From positions 1-46,154 of the forward strand of contig CAIZNN010000230.1 in assembly GCA_903934285.1 (NCBI GenBank): a stretch of 46,154 nt of DNA. The letters run 5' to 3'. Both the position numbers and the translations under genes were made by a program. The first letter of the stretch is position 1. Each line of letters opens with the position of its first letter. Shown here one piece after another: positions 1,178 through 46,154 of the stretch. Origin of the DNA: Akkermansiaceae bacterium (GTDB lineage: Bacteria; Verrucomicrobiota; Verrucomicrobiia; Verrucomicrobiales; Akkermansiaceae). The notes below the pieces were generated by a model. That model was not told the origin of the DNA. It worked only from the letters and a program-made list of their open reading frames with translations, and made no database searches.

Positions 1178-4000
1178 TTACGGAGGAGTCGGAGCTGCCG
1201 GAGTTGCTGGAGCTGCCGGAGTTGCTGGAGCTGTCGGAGTTGTCGGAGTTGCTGGAGTTGCTGGAGCTGTCGGACTTGTCGGAGTTGTCGGACTTGTCGG
1301 AGTTGTCGGACTTGTCGGAGTTGTCGGACTTGTCGGACTTGTCGGACTTGTCGGACTTGTCGGACTTGTCGGACTTGTCGGACTTGTCGGAGTTGTCGGA
1401 GTTGCCGGAGTTGCCGGAGTTGCCGGAGTTGCCGGAGTTACCGGGGCTGCCGGCGCCATCTTGGACACCGGGGGACTGGCGCGGTAGCTGTCGGGATTGA
1501 GCGGGATGGGCATCGCCGGGCCCCCCTTGGTGATGGTGCGGTAGGCGCCGAGTTTCTGGACGTAGGCGATGAGCGCCACGGCTTTGGTCTTGGCCAGATA
1601 GTTGCGCAGCTCGGCACCCGCCAGATCCGGCTTGGCCGGCAGATACACCTTGGCGGCCACCAGCGAGGCGGCGATTTCCTGCGACTGGGTTTCCGCCTTG
1701 TCGCGGATTTCATGCTGGCTCAAGGCCGGCCAGGGGACACCGAGGCGGACTTGGACCGCAATCTTGTTAGGCAGGGACTTCACATCCGTCTCCTGTTCGA
1801 AGAGCCAGGGGAAGGAGGGCATGTTCGAGCCATCGGAGATTTGGCGGGGGTTGAGGAAGTGATTGAAGTGCCAGTCGTTGCCGCGTTTGCCCACACGCAT
1901 GAATTTGTAGTCCTTGCCCTGGTCATCTTTGGCGATGGGGCCGCCTTCGCGGGCGAGGTCGGGGCCGGTGCGTTTCGACCCCCATTGATAGGGATGGTCG
2001 TAGAGGGATTCGCCCAGATGCGAGTAGTCATCCACGACGCCGGGGCGGCCATAGCGCAAGACATCGGCGGAAAGAGTGCGGATCATCTGGGAATGACACA
2101 GATAGCAACCTTCCGCGACGTAGATATCGCGTCCGGCGAGTTCGAGCGGGGTGTAGAGTTCCTGCAGGCGGCCCTCGACGTTTTTCTCGCGGTTGACGAT
2201 GAGGGTGGGAATGATCTGCACCGCGCCGCCGATGGCAGCCACGAAAAACACCAGCACCGCGAAGGGCAGGTAATTTTCAATGATGCGCTCATGCCAGCGG
2301 GTCCACCCGTCATTGGACGAGCGGAAGGCGAAGACGGCCTTGATGGCGATGAGCACGGTCAGCAGCAAGGCCGCCTTGTCCGCATGCGGCGGCAAGAAGA
2401 ACCAGAGCAAGGTGGAACAGATGCCAAGGAAAATGTAGGCGAGCGGGTCGTTGATCAGGGCTTCCGTCCACGTCATGGCGTCCTTGGCCCTGGGCTCCAG
2501 CACCGCGATTTCCACCGATTCATTGTACGGGCTGCCGGAGCGCGCGGTTTTCCAGATGTTGATGGCCAGCAGAACAAAACCGGAGAGATACAAAAAGCCC
2601 CCCACAAACCGGAAGATATAGAAGAGCTGGATGTTCTCCAGCGTCTGCAGAAAGGTGTATTCCAAGGTGGCACCATCAGGCTTGAATTGGCTGAGCATGA
2701 GCCCCTGCGAAATGCCCGAGAACCACATCGCCACAATGTAGAGCAGCACCCCGACCAGGCCGATCCAGAAGTGCATGTCGGCCAGCGCCTTGGACCAGAG
2801 TTGGGTTTTCCACAGCCGCGGCGCCAGCCAGTAGAACATGCCGGCGGCCATGAAGCCATTCCAGCCTAGAGTGCCGGAGTGGACGTGGCCGATGGTCCAA
2901 TCGGTGTAGTGGGACAGGGCGTTGACCCCCTTGATGGCCATCAGCGGCCCCTCAAAGGTGGCCATGCCGTAAAACGTCACGCCGGCGACGAAAAACTTGA
3001 TGACCGGATCGCTGCGCAGCTTGTCCCAGGCACCGCGCAGGGTGAGCAGGCCATTGAGCATGCCGCCCCAGGAGGGTGCCCACAGCATCAGTGAGAACAG
3101 CATGGCGAGGTTTTGCAACCACACCGGCAACGCGGTGTTGAGCAAGTGGTGCGGCCCCGCCCAGATATAGATGAACACCAACGACCAGAAATGGATGATC
3201 GATAAACGGTAGGAATACACCGGCCGGTTCGCCGCCTTGGGCATGTAGTAATACATGATCCCCAAAATCGGCGTGGTTAGGAAAAAGGCCACCGCATTGT
3301 GCCCGTACCACCATTGCACCAAGCCATCCTGCAGGCCGCCGAAAATCGGATAGGAATGGGTCAATGAGGTCGGCAGCGAGAGGTGGTTGACGATGTAGAG
3401 CATGGCCACCGTGATGATGGTGGCCATGTAGAACCACAACGACACGTACAGGCTCGGCTCATTGCGTTTGGCCACCGTCCAGAAGAAATTGATCGCGAAG
3501 ACGACCCAAATGCACACCACCGCGAGGTTGATGGGCCAAATCAATTCGGCGTATTCTTTGCCCCGGGTGAAACCGGCCGGCAGAGTGAGCGCCGCTGCCA
3601 CGATGATGAGTTGCCAGCCCCAGAAATGGATCGCGGAGAGCAAGTCCGAGGCGGTGCGCACCTTGCACAGCCGCTGCGTCGAGTAGTAAATCCCGGCAAA
3701 CATCATGTTGCCGACAACGGCGAAAATGACCGCATTGGTGTGCAGCGGCCGCAAGCGCCCAAAGGTGAGAAATGAGATGCCTTCGGTTTGGAAAAACGGC
3801 CACCAATCCCAACCGAATTTCGCCGCCACCCAATCGTGGAGCGGCTTGGTCAGCATCTCCAGAATGTGCCCGTTCATCTGCCACCACGACAGCTGCGTGG
3901 CAATGAGCACACCCACCGTCATGCCGATGATGGCCCAAAAGATGGAGGCGATCATGAAGCGCCGGACGGAACTGTCGTCGTAGGTTATGGTGGTGGTCAT
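1178..4000 (-). CDS. ccoNO: cbb3-type cytochrome c oxidase, fused subunits I and II (CcoNO)
   Basis: Catalytic subunit of a cbb3 terminal oxidase joined to its cytochrome c subunit II; reduces O2 to water in the cytoplasmic membrane. 940 residues from the ATG at 3998-4000. Residues 1 to about 490 are CcoN: many membrane helices, the heme-ligand region RPLHTNAVIF, the histidine-rich HNAVAFF and GPHHLLNTALP motifs, and DWTIGHVHSGTLGWNG. The rest is CcoO: membrane anchor, heme site GCYLCH near residues 630-635 and axial-Met region SNMPSFPWLF. Residues from about 851 to the end are a low-complexity Thr/Pro/Ser/Ala tail encoded by a 9-bp repeat. CcoNO fusions are known in some phyla. In-frame codons upstream of 4000 lie over the ccoS-like gene and were rejected. 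Confidence 0.93.
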   Translation of the reverse strand: MTTTITYDDSSVRRFMIASIFWAIIGMTVGVLIATQLSWWQMNGHILEMLTKPLHDWVAAKFGWDWWPFFQTEGISFLTFGRLRPLHTNAVIFAVVGNMMFAGIYYSTQRLCKVRTASDLLSAIHFWGWQLIIVAAALTLPAGFTRGKEYAELIWPINLAVVCIWVVFAINFFWTVAKRNEPSLYVSLWFYMATIITVAMLYIVNHLSLPTSLTHSYPIFGGLQDGLVQWWYGHNAVAFFLTTPILGIMYYYMPKAANRPVYSYRLSIIHFWSLVFIYIWAGPHHLLNTALPVWLQNLAMLFSLMLWAPSWGGMLNGLLTLRGAWDKLRSDPVIKFFVAGVTFYGMATFEGPLMAIKGVNALSHYTDWTIGHVHSGTLGWNGFMAAGMFYWLAPRLWKTQLWSKALADMHFWIGLVGVLLYIVAMWFSGISQGLMLSQFKPDGATLEYTFLQTLENIQLFYIFRFVGGFLYLSGFVLLAINIWKTARSGSPYNESVEIAVLEPRAKDAMTWTEALINDPLAYIFLGICSTLLWFFLPPHADKAALLLTVLIAIKAVFAFRSSNDGWTRWHERIIENYLPFAVLVFFVAAIGGAVQIIPTLIVNREKNVEGRLQELYTPLELAGRDIYVAEGCYLCHSQMIRTLSADVLRYGRPGVVDDYSHLGESLYDHPYQWGSKRTGPDLAREGGPIAKDDQGKDYKFMRVGKRGNDWHFNHFLNPRQISDGSNMPSFPWLFEQETDVKSLPNKIAVQVRLGVPWPALSQHEIRDKAETQSQEIAASLVAAKVYLPAKPDLAGAELRNYLAKTKAVALIAYVQKLGAYRTITKGGPAMPIPLNPDSYRASPPVSKMAPAAPVTPATPATPATPATPTTPTSPTSPTSPTSPTSPTSPTSPTTPTSPTTPTSPTTPTSPTAPATPATPTTPTAPATPAAPATPAAPTPP
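1183..1445. repeat. 9-bp minisatellite in the ccoNO 3' end
   Basis: About 29 tandem copies of a 9-bp unit, written on the plus strand as TCGGACTTG with variants TCGGAGTTG and CCGGAGTTG. It is in frame with ccoNO on the minus strand and encodes triplets such as SPT, TPT and APA. Blocks of identical units suggest recent expansion by slippage or unequal exchange. The period of nine keeps the frame open when copy number changes. Confidence 0.93.
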
Positions 4001-4022
4001 GGCTGGGAGGAAGCAGGTGGCG

Positions 4023-4226
4023 TCAGGGGATTTGGGGACGGCTGGCGGCCGCCGCCGCAGGCGTTTCGTGCGGGGGTGGGGCCACATCGAGTGGCAAGAG
4101 CGAATCCCGCTCCGGACTGGAGCGGCGCGAACGGCGGACTTCGGCGGCAAAACAAACGATGAAAATCCCGGCCAGACAGACGGAAATGAAAATGGTCAGC
4201 GCCAACACGTTCACGGCGCGAACCAT
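4023..4226 (-). CDS. ccoS: CcoS-like cbb3 oxidase assembly protein
   Basis: A 67-residue protein ending 22 bp upstream of ccoNO. It has one N-terminal membrane helix (about residues 8-27) followed by a basic segment and the motif SPERDSLLPLD, then a Pro/Ala-rich tail. CcoS/FixS proteins are short single-helix proteins needed for cofactor insertion in cbb3 oxidase, and the acidic motif after the helix and the position fit. The usual GQFDDL-type motif is not present in its textbook form. It could instead be an unrelated small membrane protein of the operon. Confidence 0.5.
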   Translation of the reverse strand: MVRAVNVLALTIFISVCLAGIFIVCFAAEVRRSRRSSPERDSLLPLDVAPPPHETPAAAAASRPQIP

Positions 4227-13511: not shown

Positions 13512-13887
13512 GGGGCGAAATGCTTGTGGGGACCTCGATGAAAATGCTGACTTGTTAGCCAAGGCAATAGGGGGGCTGTGGGGCGTGTGCGGGACTGGAT
13601 GACTTGAAATACCTGTTATACGCGCGATGCGATGCGTTCGGTACTGCCCCGGTAAGGGATACCTTGCGGATGACCTAAGGCTCCACGCGGATAAACTCAA
13701 GCTCAAATGCAACGTCAGCCTGATCTGAAAATCAGGTGTCATACAAACAATCAGATCTGGGGAATCTGAGGATTCTGAGGATTCTGGGGAATCTGGGGAA
13801 TCTGGGGAATCTGGGGAATCTGAGGAGTTGCCCGTGGGGCCTCGGGCGGCTGTGCAGGGGCCTCGGAAATTGCTCCCGACGCCCGCT
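13512..13887. other. Intergenic region with hairpin and repeat array
   Basis: No gene is seen in these 376 bp. The stretch next to the efflux gene should carry its promoter. A short perfect hairpin lies at 13719-13736 (CCTGAT, 6-nt loop, ATCAGG). A 9-bp array occupies 13754-13829. The last 58 bp, immediately after the transposase stop codon, show nothing recognisable. Confidence 0.6.
13754..13829. repeat. 9-bp tandem array downstream of the transposase
   Basis: About eight units of AATCTGGGG with variants ATTCTGAGG and AATCTGAGG. It is not in a plausible gene. It lies 58 bp beyond the 3' end of the HUH transposase. Period nine matches the arrays in ccoNO and the start of the sucB linker, although the unit sequence differs. 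Confidence 0.9.
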
Positions 13888-27352: not shown

Positions 27353-28492
<1,140 letters not shown>

Positions 28493-37031: not shown

Positions 37032-38546
37032 ATGAAGTCACGAGGCCCCCAATCCAAATTCACCAGTCAACCCTTGCGCAGCGCCATCGCCATCTTATGG
37101 GTGGCTTCACTCGCCGCAGGCTCGTCCGTGGCACCCGGACAGGGCGCCGAGGCGCCGGCAACGACTACCACCACCACGCCCACGGAGACGGCGTGGAAAC
37201 TTCCCAACGAGCAACTGGATTCCCTGGTCGCGCCGATCGCGCTGTATCCCGACCCGCTGTTGAGCCAGACGCTGGTGGCTGCGAGCTACCCGTTGGAGCT
37301 GATTCAGCTGCAACAGTGGATGGAGAGGAACAAGTCGCTGAAGGGCAAAGCGCTGGCCGATGCCGTGCAAAAACAGAACTGGGATCCAAGCATCCAAGCC
37401 ATGGTCGCGGTTCCGGACGTGGTGCAGCGCCTGGCCGGCAACATCCAATGGACCACGGACCTGGGCAACGCATTCCTGGCGCAACCCGCCGACGTGATGA
37501 GCGCAGTCCAGCGCATGCGAGCCAAGGCGCAGGGGACGGGAGCTTTGGTGACCAACACCCAACAAAAAGTCGAAACCCAAGTCATCGAAGGCGGCACGCA
37601 GGTCATCGTGATTGAGCAAGCCAGCCCGGAGGTGGTTTACGTCCCCTCGTACGATCCGGTGGTGGTTTATGGCGCGCCCGCTTATCCTTATCCATCCTAT
37701 ATCTATCCGGGATACGTGCCGGGAATGGGCTTGGCGTTTGGGGCCGGATTCGTCTTGGGCGCCGCTTGGGGCGGCGGCTGGGGTTACCACTGCGGCTGGG
37801 GCGGCGGCGACGTCAATGTCAATATCAACAACAACTATATTCGCCATTATAACAACATCAACAACCTCGACCGGGGCCTGCAGGGAGGCAAGTGGCAGCA
37901 CCAGCCGGCACATCGCGGTGGCGCGCCGTACGGACCCGGCGGAATCGGCGGCGTCGGCGGTGCCACCCGGCCCGGTGGCGTCGGTCGCCCCGGCGGAGTC
38001 GGCGGCGTCGGCAAGCCCGGCGGAGTCGGCGGCGTCGGTGGCGTCGGTGGCGTCGGTGGCGTGGGCGGTGTCGGCAAGCCCGGCGGTGTCGGCGGTGTCG
38101 GCGGTGTCGGCGGTGTCGGTGGCGTCGGTGGCGTGGGCGGTGTCGGCAAGCCCGGCGGGGTTGGTAAGCCCGGCGGCGTTGGCGGCGTGGGCAAGCCCGG
38201 CGGCGTAGGCGGCGTGGGCAAGCCCGGCGGCGTGGGCGGCGCAGGCAAGCCCGGAGGCATCGGCGGCGCGGCCACCAAGCCTGGTGGCGGCGCGGCCAGC
38301 CGGCCCAGCACGCTGCCAGCGAGTCGTCCCAGTGGCAGCAACAATATCGGCAGCCGCAACACATCGCCCGGCCCGGGTTATGGATCTAGCAAAAGTGCCT
38401 TCGGCGGCAGCGGCGCCAGCGGGGGTGCCGCCCGGGCCAGCAGCTTCAGAGGCGCCAGCAGCATGGGCAGCCGTGGCGGCGCCAGCCGTGGCGGTGGCGG
38501 CCGTGGCGGTGGCGGTGGCGGTGGCGGCCGCGGTGGCCGCCGCTAA
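37032..38546 (+). CDS. DUF3300 protein with Gly/Val/Lys-Pro-Gly repeat tail
   Basis: 504 residues. N-terminal signal (IAILWVASLAAGSSVA), then the DUF3300 domain from about 55 to 215 (LDSLVAPIALYPDPLLSQTLVAASYPLELIQLQQW, WDPSIQAMVAVPDVVQ, ASPEVVYVPSYDPVVVYG). After a Gly/Asn-rich stretch (GGDVNVNINNNYIRHYNN) comes a long low-complexity region of GVGG and GVGKPG repeats and a Ser/Gly/Arg-rich C terminus. Exported and of unknown function. It is normally next to a DUF2950 gene, as here, 53 bp apart. The ATG at 37032 begins MKSRGPQSK. Confidence 0.9.
   Translation: MKSRGPQSKFTSQPLRSAIAILWVASLAAGSSVAPGQGAEAPATTTTTTPTETAWKLPNEQLDSLVAPIALYPDPLLSQTLVAASYPLELIQLQQWMERNKSLKGKALADAVQKQNWDPSIQAMVAVPDVVQRLAGNIQWTTDLGNAFLAQPADVMSAVQRMRAKAQGTGALVTNTQQKVETQVIEGGTQVIVIEQASPEVVYVPSYDPVVVYGAPAYPYPSYIYPGYVPGMGLAFGAGFVLGAAWGGGWGYHCGWGGGDVNVNINNNYIRHYNNINNLDRGLQGGKWQHQPAHRGGAPYGPGGIGGVGGATRPGGVGRPGGVGGVGKPGGVGGVGGVGGVGGVGGVGKPGGVGGVGGVGGVGGVGGVGGVGKPGGVGKPGGVGGVGKPGGVGGVGKPGGVGGAGKPGGIGGAATKPGGGAASRPSTLPASRPSGSNNIGSRNTSPGPGYGSSKSAFGGSGASGGAARASSFRGASSMGSRGGASRGGGGRGGGGGGGGRGGRR
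37960..38270. repeat. GGCGGNGTC 9-bp repeat encoding Gly-Val-Gly
   Basis: GGCGGTGTC, GGTGGCGTC and related 9-bp units encode GVG, interleaved with AAGCCC (KP). A 39-bp block ending AAGCCCGGC recurs at least twice (about 38040-38090 and 38115-38160). Frame is kept throughout. Confidence 0.9.
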
Positions 38547-40710: not shown

Positions 40711-43389
40711 CTACGGATCCAACAACGAGCGCACGGTGGCCGGATCGAGGGTGGCGGCGAGGTCGGCACCGGCGAGGATGCCGGCGGCGAGCTTGCCCTT
40801 TTCCTGTTGGAGTTTGTGGATGCGCTCCTCGACGGTGTCCTGGCACAGCAGCTTGTGCACAAACACCGGCTTGTCCTGGCCAATCCGATAGGCGCGGTCC
40901 GTCGCCTGCGCCTCGGCCGCCGGGTTCCACCATGGGTCGTAGTGGATGACGGTGTCCGCGGCAGTTAGATTGAGGCCGGTGCCGCCGGCCTTCAGCGAGA
41001 TGAGAAACAGCGGGATTTTGCCGGTCTGGAAATCTGCCACCAATTTGCCGCGGTCCTTGGAGGCGCCGGTGAGCTTGAGGTAGGGGATGCGCACGTGGCA
41101 GAGATGCGCCTCGATGAGTGCGAGCATGCTGGTGAATTGTGAGAACAGCAGGATCCGCCGGCCTTCTTCGATGAGCAACTCCAACAGGGCCGTCAGGAAA
41201 TCCAGCTTGGCGGATTCGCGCACGTGGCTGGAGAAATCGTCGGGCAACAGGCGCGGGTCGCAACAAATCTGGCGCAGCTTGAGCAAGGCATCGAGGAAGA
41301 CAATCTGGGATTGGCCGAGGCCGCGCGCGGCGATGGCCTGGCGCACGCGTTTGTCCATGGTGGCGCGCACGGTTTCGTAGAGGTCCTTTTGGTTGCTGTG
41401 CAGTTCGATGAGGTGGACCAGTTCGGTTTTCGGCGGCAATTCCTTGGCCACCTGGTCCTTGGTGCGGCGCAAAATCAACGGGGCCACGCGGCGTTTGAGC
41501 ACCTCGTTGCGTTCGGCGTCGCCATCCTTTTCGATCGGCTTGCGGAAGCGGCTGTTGAATGCCTCCTCGCTGCCGAGAAACCCCGGAATGAGGAAGCGCA
41601 GCAGGCTCCACAACTCGCCGAGGTGGTTCTCGATGGGCGTGCCGGACAGGCACAGGCGGTGGCGCGCGTCGAGCTTGCAGGCGGCCTGTGCCACCTTGGC
41701 GCGCGGGTTCTTGATGTTCTGCGCCTCATCCAACACCACCAGGTGAAAGGCCACGCCGCGCAACTTGTCGATGTCGCGCTGCAACAGCGCGAATGATGTT
41801 AGAACCAGGTCGGCGTGGGGGATCGAACGGAAATATTTCTTGCGCTCCGCCCCGTTGAGCACCAGCACCCGCAGGCTGGGGGTGAACTTGAGCGCCTCGG
41901 CCCGCCAGTTAGGCACGACCGAGGTGGGTGCCACCACCAGCACCGGCTTGCCGGCCGCGTGGCCGGCCTGTTTTTCGGTTAGAATATGGGCCAGGGTTTG
42001 CAAGGTTTTGCCGAGGCCCATGTCGTCGGCCAGGATCCCGTGCAACCCGTGGCGCGCCAGGAATTGCATCCAGTGAAAGCCGCTGAGTTGATAGTCGCGC
42101 AGCGTCGCCTCTACCCCCGCCGGCAGCGCCACCGGCTCGATGCCGGAAAAATCCTTGAGCTTCGCCGCCAACTCCGCCAGATCCGGCGGCGGTGTGAGCC
42201 CGAGTCCCTCCAAACCGGCGAGCGCCGCGGCATCCAGCGCGTGCAGGCGGGTGCGCTCGGGAAACTTCGGGTCGAGCAACGCCGCGAGGTGTTGCAGAAT
42301 CATCCGCACCCGGCCCACCGGCAGGCGCAGCGCGGCGCCGTTGGGCAGCGGCGCGTACACGTGGCCGTTGTTTGGACGGTCCAGCGTCTCCTCCAGGAAA
42401 TCGCTTTCTAACAATCCTGCCAGGATCGGCAACAGGTCGTGGCGCTCGCCGGCCACCTCGAAGCCCACCGACAAGCTGAACCAGCCGCCGTGACCCGCCT
42501 CCAGCGCGCTGTCCCACTGCGATGGATCGGCGTCAAACACGCAGTGGCCGACGTTGTCATCGATGGCGACACGCCAGCCGAGCGCTTCCAGCCGAGCCAC
42601 CATTTCGCCGCGGAATTGGAACCAGAACTCATCGACGGGCACCCGCCCCGGGTCGGGAAACCAGCGGTCCGGACCGGTGGTGGAGGCCGCGTCCCTGGAC
42701 TTGAGATTGAGCAGGAAGCGCCACGCCGAATTCGCCTGCAGCGACGACAGGCCGGTATCGCGGAGTTGTTGGGCGGCGGCGTTTTCGGCCGCCGCATCGT
42801 GTTTGAGAACCGCGGTTTGGCCGTCGGCCAGCGTCACGGTGCTCACCCACTCCGGCGCGGCGGCCCGCAGTGGACTACTATGCCCATCGTAGTTGACCAC
42901 CGCGCTGGCGAATATCCATTGGTCCGGCGCGGCCAGCCCGAGCGATTGCAGCAACAGCCGCGTCGTGCGGTCGGTCGGCTCGCGGGTGACGTGCAACTCG
43001 AAGCGCGGCTCGGGCCTGAGCCACGGCCGCTCCGGTGCGGGCTCACTGCGCACGTCGCGCGCGGCGGGCAGGGCCGCCGCCACCGCCGCCGCCACACTAT
43101 GGCCGAGCAGGCGTTGCGGGTCGCGGTCCTTCGCCGCTTTAAGCAACAGCGCCGCCGCATGATGGCAATAGCTGCCAAGCTCGCACGTGCATGAGGTCTC
43201 GAAATCCCAGGCGCTGCCGGAGTGCCAGATATGGACCTCGGTTTCCTCGTTGCCCACCATGCCCAGCAGCGCGATGCTGGCGGCGTCGATGCGCAAGTCC
43301 CTGACCTTCGACACCAGCGGTTGCGCGGCGGCGAGAATCTCGTCGTCGAAGCGGTTTCTCCAGCGTGAATCGCCGAGAAAGGCTTGCAT
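40711..43389 (-). CDS. SWIM-domain SNF2-family DNA helicase
   Basis: Swi2/Snf2 ATPase of the bacterial HepA/RapA-related group. 892 residues: N-terminal SWIM zinc finger (CTCELGSYCHHAAALLL), a middle bacterial-SNF2-associated region (ADPSQWDSALEAGHGGWFSLSVGFEVAG), and the motor: Walker A DDMGLGKTLQ, DEAQ box VLDEAQNIKN, SGTPIENHLGELWSLLRFL, motif V SLKAGGTGLNLTAADTVIHYDPWWNPAAEAQATDRAYRIGQ. Probably acts on nucleic acid or protein-DNA complexes; no partner is adjacent. The ATG at 43387-43389 was chosen; a TTG six codons upstream is possible. Confidence 0.95.
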   Translation of the reverse strand: MQAFLGDSRWRNRFDDEILAAAQPLVSKVRDLRIDAASIALLGMVGNEETEVHIWHSGSAWDFETSCTCELGSYCHHAAALLLKAAKDRDPQRLLGHSVAAAVAAALPAARDVRSEPAPERPWLRPEPRFELHVTREPTDRTTRLLLQSLGLAAPDQWIFASAVVNYDGHSSPLRAAAPEWVSTVTLADGQTAVLKHDAAAENAAAQQLRDTGLSSLQANSAWRFLLNLKSRDAASTTGPDRWFPDPGRVPVDEFWFQFRGEMVARLEALGWRVAIDDNVGHCVFDADPSQWDSALEAGHGGWFSLSVGFEVAGERHDLLPILAGLLESDFLEETLDRPNNGHVYAPLPNGAALRLPVGRVRMILQHLAALLDPKFPERTRLHALDAAALAGLEGLGLTPPPDLAELAAKLKDFSGIEPVALPAGVEATLRDYQLSGFHWMQFLARHGLHGILADDMGLGKTLQTLAHILTEKQAGHAAGKPVLVVAPTSVVPNWRAEALKFTPSLRVLVLNGAERKKYFRSIPHADLVLTSFALLQRDIDKLRGVAFHLVVLDEAQNIKNPRAKVAQAACKLDARHRLCLSGTPIENHLGELWSLLRFLIPGFLGSEEAFNSRFRKPIEKDGDAERNEVLKRRVAPLILRRTKDQVAKELPPKTELVHLIELHSNQKDLYETVRATMDKRVRQAIAARGLGQSQIVFLDALLKLRQICCDPRLLPDDFSSHVRESAKLDFLTALLELLIEEGRRILLFSQFTSMLALIEAHLCHVRIPYLKLTGASKDRGKLVADFQTGKIPLFLISLKAGGTGLNLTAADTVIHYDPWWNPAAEAQATDRAYRIGQDKPVFVHKLLCQDTVEERIHKLQQEKGKLAAGILAGADLAATLDPATVRSLLDP

Positions 43390-43718
43390 GTCCGTGGTGT
43401 CTGGCAAGGTGGCACCACCGTTCTAGCACGGATTGCCAACCAGCCAATCCTGAAAATCCCGCCGATTCATTCTCGACAATGCGCTCGCCGCGACTGGCGT
43501 CACGCGGCTGCCCAAGGCGTGACGAGGCTCCAGCTGCCGCCGCCACCACCCCCAACGCGTTGTCACCTGTGCGCCTGCCAATTTCTTGTCGCGGTCCGGT
43601 GGGGAGTGCCGGCGTCGCGCCGGCAATGTTCGGCATCCTGCCGGGCATCTTCCAATGTGGCGCCAACGCCCGGCCGCCTAAACGCTCCGCCATCCCCTAA
43701 CATCCAAACCTATCCCCC
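43390..43718. other. Divergent intergenic region with REP-like palindrome
   Basis: No gene is seen. A perfect hairpin TGCCGGCG-TCG-CGCCGGCA lies at 43607-43625, followed by GGCATCCTGCCGGGCATC, reminiscent of the inner repeat of the element at 5-150. It should carry promoters for both the helicase and rtcB. Confidence 0.6.
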
Positions 43719-45155
43719 ATGCACGTCATCCATAAGTCCGGCGAAGCCCTCGGCTTCATCCCGCTGCCCGGCCACGCGGGCAAGCCCGTCACCGTGGTCG
43801 GCACCGATGCCATCCGTGAGGGCTTTGATGCAACCTGCCTCAACCAGGCGGTCAACTCGCGGCTGGCCCCCGGCGTCACCGATGTGATTCTCAACCCCGA
43901 TGGTCATGCCGGTTATGGCGCGCCGATCGGTTGTGTGATGGTCTCGCCGACCCATATCTATCCGGGCCCGGTGGGTGTGGATATCAAGTGCTCGATGTCC
44001 CTGTTGCAGCTCGACATTGCGGAAGATGTGCTGATAGACAAGCGCACCCGCCGCCGCATCATCGATGCCATCGTCGAGCGCACCCCCACCGGCGCGGGCC
44101 GCGGCCAGCGCTCGGTGCCAAAGAGCCGCCACGTGGACCGCGAACTCGGCGTGCTCGCCGTGACCGAGGGGGCGTCGGCGCGGGTGTGTCAGGCGTTAGG
44201 CATCCCGCCGGATTGGGCGATCCGTTGCGAGGACTCCAAGCACACCGGCCACGACGGCACTCCTGAGGCGTTGAACCTCCGCCTTGACGCCATCCTTGCC
44301 GCCGGGCGCATCCGCAATTTCGCCGAGAAGATGCAACAACTCGGCTCTTATGGTGGCGGCAACCATTCCGGCGAGTGCGAGATCACCCGCGTCATCGACC
44401 GCCCGGACGCCCGCGCCACTGCGGCCGTGTTCGGCTTGCTGGATAGGCATGCCTCGTTCCTCAGCCACTGTGGCTCGCGCGGCTTCGGCAATTTGTTAGC
44501 CCAGGGCCAGTTCAAGGATCTGGCGCGCAAGTTCGAGCGCTGGGGCACCCCCTTTCCCAGCGGCGACAAGCACCTCGTCTATGCTCCGCTAGGCACGCCC
44601 GAGGCCGCTGCCTATCTCGACGACATGGCGCTGGGCGCCAACTTCGCCACGGTCAACCATTTGCTCATCAATGCGCTGGTGCTCGAAGCGTTCCAGCTAA
44701 TCCTGCCCGGCACCCGCGGCCATCTCGTGGATTTCATTTCCCACAACATCGCCCGTGAGGAAATCATCAACGGCACCAAGGCCTGGGTCCACCGCAAGGG
44801 CGCCACCCGCGCCATTCCCGGCGGCCACTTCGCCCTGGCGGGCACCCCGTTTGCGCGCTCCGGCCATCCGATCCTGTTGCCCGGCAACCCGCGCGATGGC
44901 TCGGTGGTCATGGTCGCCCAAGCCGGCGCCGAACTCACCGCCTGGTCGGTCAATCACGGGGCCGGCCGCGCCATGGGCCGCAGGCACGCCGCCCAATACG
45001 GTTTACTTCGCACCCTTGGTGGTTTGAGTCGAGGCTCCCGACGCCTACAAGAATTTCCCCGAGGTGCTGCGCAGCGTCGAATTGGCCGGGCTCGCCACCA
45101 CCGTTGCCAAGCTCCAGGCGCGCTTTGTCATCAAAGACGAAGCGGCGCCGGATGA
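43719..45155 (+). CDS. rtcB: RtcB-type RNA ligase, C terminus disrupted
   Basis: GTP-dependent ligase joining 2',3'-cyclic phosphate and 5'-OH RNA ends. Intact through the core: NPDGHAGYGAPIGCV, metal site VGVDIKCSM, GSYGGGNHSGECEI, HCGSRGFGN, and the guanylylated-His motif SVNHGAGRAMGRRHA. At 44991-45038 the gene contains a near-identical copy of the repeat from 101-148; beyond it the frame is wrong, ending at 45155 with non-homologous residues. The authentic C terminus lies in the next frame (annotated separately). Whether an active enzyme is made is doubtful, since the last conserved strand with its GTP-contacting Lys is lost. Confidence 0.85.
   Translation: MHVIHKSGEALGFIPLPGHAGKPVTVVGTDAIREGFDATCLNQAVNSRLAPGVTDVILNPDGHAGYGAPIGCVMVSPTHIYPGPVGVDIKCSMSLLQLDIAEDVLIDKRTRRRIIDAIVERTPTGAGRGQRSVPKSRHVDRELGVLAVTEGASARVCQALGIPPDWAIRCEDSKHTGHDGTPEALNLRLDAILAAGRIRNFAEKMQQLGSYGGGNHSGECEITRVIDRPDARATAAVFGLLDRHASFLSHCGSRGFGNLLAQGQFKDLARKFERWGTPFPSGDKHLVYAPLGTPEAAAYLDDMALGANFATVNHLLINALVLEAFQLILPGTRGHLVDFISHNIAREEIINGTKAWVHRKGATRAIPGGHFALAGTPFARSGHPILLPGNPRDGSVVMVAQAGAELTAWSVNHGAGRAMGRRHAAQYGLLRTLGGLSRGSRRLQEFPRGAAQRRIGRARHHRCQAPGALCHQRRSGAG
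44991..45038. repeat. partial copy of the 5-150 palindromic element within rtcB
   Basis: 46 of 48 bases match the reverse complement of 101-148. The first 18 bases are also identical to 7-24. It replaces roughly 25-30 codons of rtcB rather than being simply inserted. Confidence 0.9.
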
Positions 45156-45159
45156 TTAA
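45028..45159 (+). pseudogene. rtcB: displaced C-terminal remnant of rtcB
   Basis: Frame +1 relative to the upstream part reads EAPDAYKNFPEVLRSVELAG then LATTVAKLQARFVIKDEAA, the family's expected C terminus, ending in TAA at 45157-45159. An in-frame TGA at 45025-45027, within the repeat, prevents read-through. Confidence 0.85.
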
Positions 45160-45234
45160 GGCAAGGCGGAAGGCAAGAACATATGGAAATCGGTTTGCCA
45201 TGCTAACTACGATGCCTCCTGACATCTCCGCTGT

Positions 45235-46123
45235 GTGAATGCCGCTTGTGAGATTTCGCCAGGCGCCGCGGTGGGTATGGAGATCGGCTCCACCGAGCTG
45301 GAGTTTCATCCCGGCACAATCCGGGGTGGCGGCTATCATTTCGGGATCGGCACCGCCGGCACCACCGCCCTGTTGTTCCAGACTCTGCTGCCGGCCTTGC
45401 TGCGCGCGGATGCCCCCGGCACCTCGAAGGCGGCACCCACAACCCGCTCGCACCGCCGTCTGAATTCCTGGAGCGCGTGTACCTGCCGGCCGTGTGCCGC
45501 ATGGGTGCTAGCGCCACCATCGCCCTCGGCGAGACCGGCCTTGCCCCGGCTGGTGGCGGCTGCATCCTGTCTAGCACCACTCCCTGCGCCGGGTTCGCCC
45601 CCTTGCGAGTTGCACGAGCGCGGCGAGTTGCTAGGCCTGCGCATCCCTGTGCCGATCCGCATTCTATCGGCCGCGATCGGCCGCCGCATGCTCGACGCCG
45701 CGTTGGCAAAGCTGCCCGGCTCGCCGCTGCCGCGAAACCCCGCGCGCCCGGCCCGGGGCGCGGCGTGTGCTGTCATGTGGAAGCCACTTTCGAGCACCTG
45801 ACTGAACTGACCTGCAGCGTCGGCGTGCAAGGTGCCACTGCCGAGCGCGGCGGCGAGCGGGCGGCGAAAACCATGCCTGACTTCATCGGCTCCAGCGCCG
45901 CGGTGGGCCGCCATCCCGCCGGTCAACTCTTGCTGCCGCCAGCCCGGGCTGGTGCCGGCAGCCTCACCACCATGGCCCCGACGAGCATCTGCCCACCACC
46001 ATGGCCGTCATCGAGCAATTCCTGCCGCTGCCCTTCCGCATCACCGGGGCCGCCCGCGCCACCCGCGTCATTGCCGTGGGGTGCGGCTGGGAGCGGCTCC
46101 CAGCCGCAACCCAACTCTCGTGA
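45235..46123 (+). pseudogene. rtcA: degraded RNA 3'-terminal phosphate cyclase
   Basis: RtcA makes 2',3'-cyclic phosphate ends and is the usual partner of RtcB. Fragments in order but in different frames: IGSTELEFHPGTIRGGGYHF and GTAGTTALLFQTLLPALLRA (from 45235); EGGTHNPLAPPSEFLERVYL and GLAPAGGG (from 45423); CELHERGELLGLRIPV and IGRRMLDAALAKL (from 45601); HVEATFEHLTELTCSVGVQG and AAVGRHPAGQLLLPPARAGA (from 45765); EHLPTTMAVIEQFLPLPFRI (from 45983) to TGA at 46121. The N-terminal 60 or so residues with the GEGGGQ-type motif are missing. At least four frameshifts. The last codons lie in a palindrome. Confidence 0.9.
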
Positions 46124-46154
46124 GTCACCCGCGCCGCAACCCAACTCTCGTGAG
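46086..46154. repeat. palindrome and 21-bp direct repeat at the window end
   Basis: A 10-bp perfect stem GGCTGGGAGC/GCTCCCAGCC with a single-base loop lies at 46086-46106. Then a 21-bp unit beginning CCGCAACCCAACTCTCGTGA occurs at 46104-46124 and again at 46134-46154, where the window stops. Repeats like this often end an assembled contig. Confidence 0.85.

Follow-up and report, generated by a model that had tools for sequence, protein, structure and literature searches.

The rtcB gene studied here is very probably a pseudogene, broken in two steps, the insertion of a MITE and a subsequent deletion, within an rtcBA operon under weak or no selection. The window, i.e. the whole stretch of 46,154 nucleotides that was analysed, is one whole contig of a 4.8-Mb Akkermansiaceae draft genome (282 contigs, rated 97% complete), and the parts of rtcB, rtcA and the element located in it below lie on its forward strand. 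No second rtcB was found in this genome: one search gave a single match, the window itself, and another gave two, which are the two pieces of the gene in the window.

The conserved part of rtcB, recognised by its PF01139 match and collinear with its relatives as far as GRRHAA (residue 425), occupies positions 43719-44993, with 425 codons in frame and the substitution F217S. The ORF starting at 43719 has a stop ending at 45155 and a product of 478 residues. After 44993, 37 foreign nt (44994-45030) take the place of 81 nt (27 codons) of rtcB, and as a result the authentic C-terminal tail, EAPDAYK...APDD, lies in another frame. This tail (45031-45159, 42 codons plus stop) was identified by its match to the relative L110, whose residues 452-493 match window positions 45028-45153; its stop, in the next frame, ends at 45159, near that of the shifted ORF. 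The preliminary description of this DNA had proposed that some 25-30 codons were replaced by 48 bp, with the authentic C-terminal 40 residues left in the next frame. The replacement stands, at 27 codons, and so does the displaced tail, at 42 residues, while the foreign stretch amounts to 37 nt.

The relatives compared were the best 80 of 357. Most belong to the Verrucomicrobiota, and the nearest include Akkermansiaceae MAGs, Luteolibacter and Haloferula; the nearest rtcB of all is that of L110, an Akkermansiaceae MAG (88% identity over the first 425 residues). In relatives, 27 residues absent from the window stand between HAA and EAPDAYK (RTLDQ...YPID in L110) and are followed by the tail, EAPDAYK...ARFVIKD. 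These residues are present in 13/13 loci of the first set of relatives compared, and in 75/75 loci of the 80 examined whose frame was resolved by motif (74 with the whole tail, one cut by a contig end; the other five were left out). The window ORF carries a frame lesion relative to its homologues, one of the marks of a pseudogene. PF01139 matches it with 249.6 bits over profile positions 1-362 of 426 (1-425 in L110), so that a complete RtcB domain through the C-terminal Lys is missing and 64 C-terminal profile positions are unmatched in frame.

The lesion does not stand in isolation. Directly 3' of rtcB, as in L110 and in a further relative, L129, lies rtcA (45223-46078), which by its match to relatives is also a pseudogene: its first ~45 codons are missing, the matches are spread over three frames, and alignment with L110 and L129 reveals length changes of -7, +1, -1 and -1. 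Changes on the window branch of rtcA are distributed over the codon positions as 23/37/31 (p=0.20 versus an even spread), against 23/14/64 and 20/14/38 in the relatives (window versus relatives, p=1.8e-5). In the 5' part of rtcB, the window branch shows 18/19/40 versus 24/16/128 in both relatives (p=4e-4), with an N:S of 17:33 versus 20:106 (Fisher p=0.013).

Two further stretches of the window served as controls: 40711-43407, which is the helicase gene, and positions 1712-4150 within the left ORF. Both were compared with the same two genomes as the rtcB rows (G073 and G062). Their window N:S values were 20:79 and 12:77, respectively, and neither displayed a codon-position shift (p=0.68 and 0.64), the G062 copy of 1712-4150 having an internal stop and G062 being rated 6% contaminated. 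The rtcB rows of this comparison are the same data as the first rtcB test and no second test, since the rtcB present in L213 and L214 does not differ from that of L110 and L129. The shifts on the window branch of rtcA and rtcB, with none in the controls, indicate that constraint has been relaxed in the operon and not in the two control genes; this is a second mark of a pseudogene. Thus, constraint is lost in rtcA and relaxed in rtcB. With rtcA to all appearance fully neutral and rtcB only in part, the pattern suggests that rtcA decayed before rtcB.

The foreign stretch belongs to an element of 136 bp with 16-bp inverted ends (CAATACGGTTTACTTA), a full copy of which lies at the left contig end (10-145). 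Being short, bounded by terminal inverted repeats and present in many copies, it qualifies as a MITE. With the left-end copy as query, at least 85 matching stretches were found in the draft genome, at least 41 of them strong (E below 1e-50); the copy count is a lower bound, with 40 of 183 candidates scored, and some copies at contig ends may be two halves of one place. With one mismatch allowed, the terminal 17-mer is found 103 times in the genome of 4.8 Mb (44 times forward, 59 times reverse), against none for the reversed pattern used as control.

Target-site duplications, also expected of a MITE, are found as well. In the fetched loci there are 35 full copies, 25 of them with both flanks; 12 of the 25 are bordered by exact 11-bp repeats, one by a repeat of 10 bp and 12 by none or one base, and rtcB itself keeps one flank. 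Among 97 distinct element ends, each insertion contributing its two ends separately, 79 stand directly after GG-N7-CC, versus 0.75% of window positions. The middle of the element is a REP-like palindrome, the arms of which (GGCAGGATGCC and GGCATCTTGCC) resemble the target, and 24 of the 97 ends directly follow one of four REP-like palindrome-arm 11-mers; all four together have one occurrence in window positions 201-46154. At L009, L019, L077 and L083 copies are nested or in tandem, some right after the REP-like palindrome of another copy. At L020 (element G000:C241:12197-12340) the flanking sequences of 11 nt, GGCATTCTGCC and GGCAGAATGCC, do not form a direct repeat, each being the reverse complement of the other, perhaps owing to an inversion.

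Matches to the element exist in at least 24 of 73 genomes of the genus, the source genome included. Many of them cover the REP-like middle only and, among the matches listed, those over most of the element are 70-84% identical. The transposase profile PF01609 had no match in the genome (the same profile matched 9/14 control genomes), and no transposase was recognised by eye in the starts of the five longest ORFs of 13 stretches with solitary or odd element ends. Ends of this sort number 4 in all across four genus genomes with good matches to the element. It is possible, if somewhat short of probable, that the element represents an undescribed Akkermansiaceae MITE family with a REP-like palindrome, which would prefer REP-like palindrome arms as targets, generate 11-bp duplications through some transposase, and break genes such as rtcB by its insertions and remnants. 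Among the matches listed in a search of the open-licence literature by title, there was no report of such a family or of rtcB loss in Verrucomicrobiota. The element family is the one mildly new part of the case.

Within rtcB, GGCACGCCGCC (44983-44993) conforms to the target rule of the element (GGN7CC) and would be the left copy of the presumed 11-bp duplication. The remnant, delimited by element alignment (44994-45038), begins precisely with the outermost base of the element, directly 3' of GGCACGCCGCC, and comprises the first 45 of its 136 nt; the leading 37 of these, up to 45030, have no counterpart in rtcB. It agrees with the nearest element copies at 44/45 nt. The 48 bp had been described as identical to the left-end element; kinship is borne out and identity is not, as the inverted repeat 101-148 / 44991-45038 agrees at 46/48 positions (96%). 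Since the second target copy is gone, the insertion in rtcB rests on one flank.

The right junction, placed by alignment with relatives and with element ends, lies inside the element, at GAGGCTCC (45031-45038), 8 nt that the element now shares with the EAP codons of rtcB. In 45 of the 46 distinct element ends with GAGGC(C/T)CC, more of the element follows; the one exception is the end in rtcB, where rtcB sequence follows. At the junction place, 39 related rtcB sequences (some of them duplicates) read GAGGC in 14 cases, two of these being GAGGCTCC, and otherwise in 25 (L110 has GAGGCACC and L129 GAAGCGCC); the 8 nt are the present-day length of the homology, and the ancestral rtcB sequence may have differed there. 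The repeat-mediated deletion put forward in the preliminary description is retained as regards the repeat and the deletion. Recombination between two repeat copies is rejected because the right junction is inside the element, the short homology joining the element interior to the EAP codons.

In the first of the two proposed steps, the 136-bp non-autonomous MITE would have transposed into GGCACGCCGCC, after rtcB codon 425. A later deletion between GAGGCTCC of the element and the EAP codons would have taken away 27 codons together with the second copy of the target and the far 91 bp of the element, and would thereby have put the tail out of frame. Its length would be ~190 bp, 91 from the element, 11 from the duplication and 81 + 8 from rtcB. 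The target match, the element end, the junction, the missing codons, the decay of rtcA and the relaxed constraint are observed; the size of the deletion and the order and mechanism of the steps we infer. The setting would be an rtcBA operon under weak or no selection, its rtcA decayed and its rtcB bearing a guanine-pocket substitution.

An assembly error, in which the true rtcB would be intact or contain the full element and the assembler would have fused the rtcB tail with an end of the element, is unlikely. It would fit a draft in 282 contigs, several of which begin or end in the element, which means that the assembly breaks there; the junction, moreover, lies near a contig end, at a distance of 1.1 kb. 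No other strain was found to share the junction, which counts against the two-step account. Nevertheless, the join has 8 shared nt only, the remnant variant TTTACTTCGCACCCTTGGTGG occurs once in the assembly, and the decay of rtcA and the relaxed constraint on rtcB are independent of the junction. A working rtcB behind such an error, which the preliminary description had named as its own refutation, is made unlikely by the rtcA pseudogene, F217S and the relaxed constraint, none of which that description mentions. Still less probable is a one-step template switch, by which 37 nt of an element elsewhere would have been copied into rtcB during repair, replacing 81 nt with no transposition: such an event would agree with the presence of one element end only and no second target copy, but the remnant begins at the exact terminal base, directly after GGN7CC, like real insertions. 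Insertion followed by deletion is the reading adopted in what follows.

As regards the truncated product, the catalytic His motif (VNHGAGR, with His413) is intact, as had been claimed, and the guanine-pocket Phe of the NHF motif is replaced (F217S). The position of F217S aligns with Phe204 of Pyrococcus RtcB and the lost Lys with Lys480, the latter through Lys487 of L110, confirming the earlier claim that the C-terminal Lys is lost from the frame. A study of the Pyrococcus enzyme includes the observations that both residues contact guanine, that neither the F204A nor the K480A mutant is active unless Archease is present, and that Archease rescued both (PMC3973293). This rescue counts against a loss of function, as does the comparison of 197 conserved RtcB columns: the window departs from them at 4 positions, the median among 75 homologues being 1, but three homologues depart more (9, 6 and 5) and two others also at 4. 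Judging from the sequence, ligase activity would have been lost, and although the 478-residue ORF still scores as RtcB, its product probably does not work as an enzyme. That this product might be a functional RtcB whose C-terminus is new is scarcely credible: the open frame to 45155 and the presence of the catalytic His speak for it, but the PF01139 match goes no further than profile position 362 of 426, the equivalent of Lys480 lies outside the frame, that of Phe204 is replaced, constraint is relaxed and the partner rtcA has decayed.

Across the genus, any RtcB match is found in 28/73 genomes and a whole rtcB, with a single frame reaching at least residue 490, in 18/73; the other matches include the source genome in two pieces, a G020 piece at a contig end and seven weak ones to distant relatives only. 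Absences of rtcB are upper bounds, because several genus genomes are incomplete. With a gene so patchy in the genus, its loss is unsurprising. An isolated rtcB fragment of 52-53 residues (L036, G019:C359:11512-11673), 92-94% identical to L110, lies inside a 44-kb contig of a different member of the genus and is perhaps a second case of rtcB decay.

Concerning the remainder of the contig, synteny of the helicase gene next to it with rtcB had no match in 7 related loci, and no RNA family reached the gathering score in the window. Tandem repeats of 9 bp and 12 bp form arrays at 1127-1489, 13746-13835, 27597-27788 and 37910-38540, and some of these lie within long ORFs. The right contig end (46105-46154) carries CGCAACCCAACTCTCGTGAG twice, at 46105 and at 46135, which is probably a repeat where the assembly stopped.

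The locus resembles the known rtcB-rtcA operon of the RtcB 3'-phosphate RNA ligase (PF01139) in its first 425 residues and in having rtcA directly after, and differs from it in the 64 C-terminal profile positions unmatched in frame, F217S and the decayed rtcA. Bacterial MITEs have been described as measuring 70-300 bp, with inverted ends of 15-30 bp and without coding capacity, in a source that also mentions Rickettsia palindromic elements lying in frame inside genes thought to be functional (PMC3733652). The element is like bacterial MITEs in its 136 bp, 16-bp inverted ends, target duplications and many copies, and unlike them in its 11-bp duplications at GG-N7-CC and its REP-like palindrome middle. 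With the Rickettsia elements the remnant shares the presence of a small repeat inside an ORF; unlike them, the piece in rtcB shifts the frame of a decaying gene.

The case is one of ordinary gene decay. It offers a readable route of gene loss, in which a decaying RNA-repair operon, whose rtcB is patchy in the genus, still bears the scar of the element by which it was disrupted. It is also a caution for annotators, as an ORF of 478 residues that scores as RtcB probably encodes no working enzyme.
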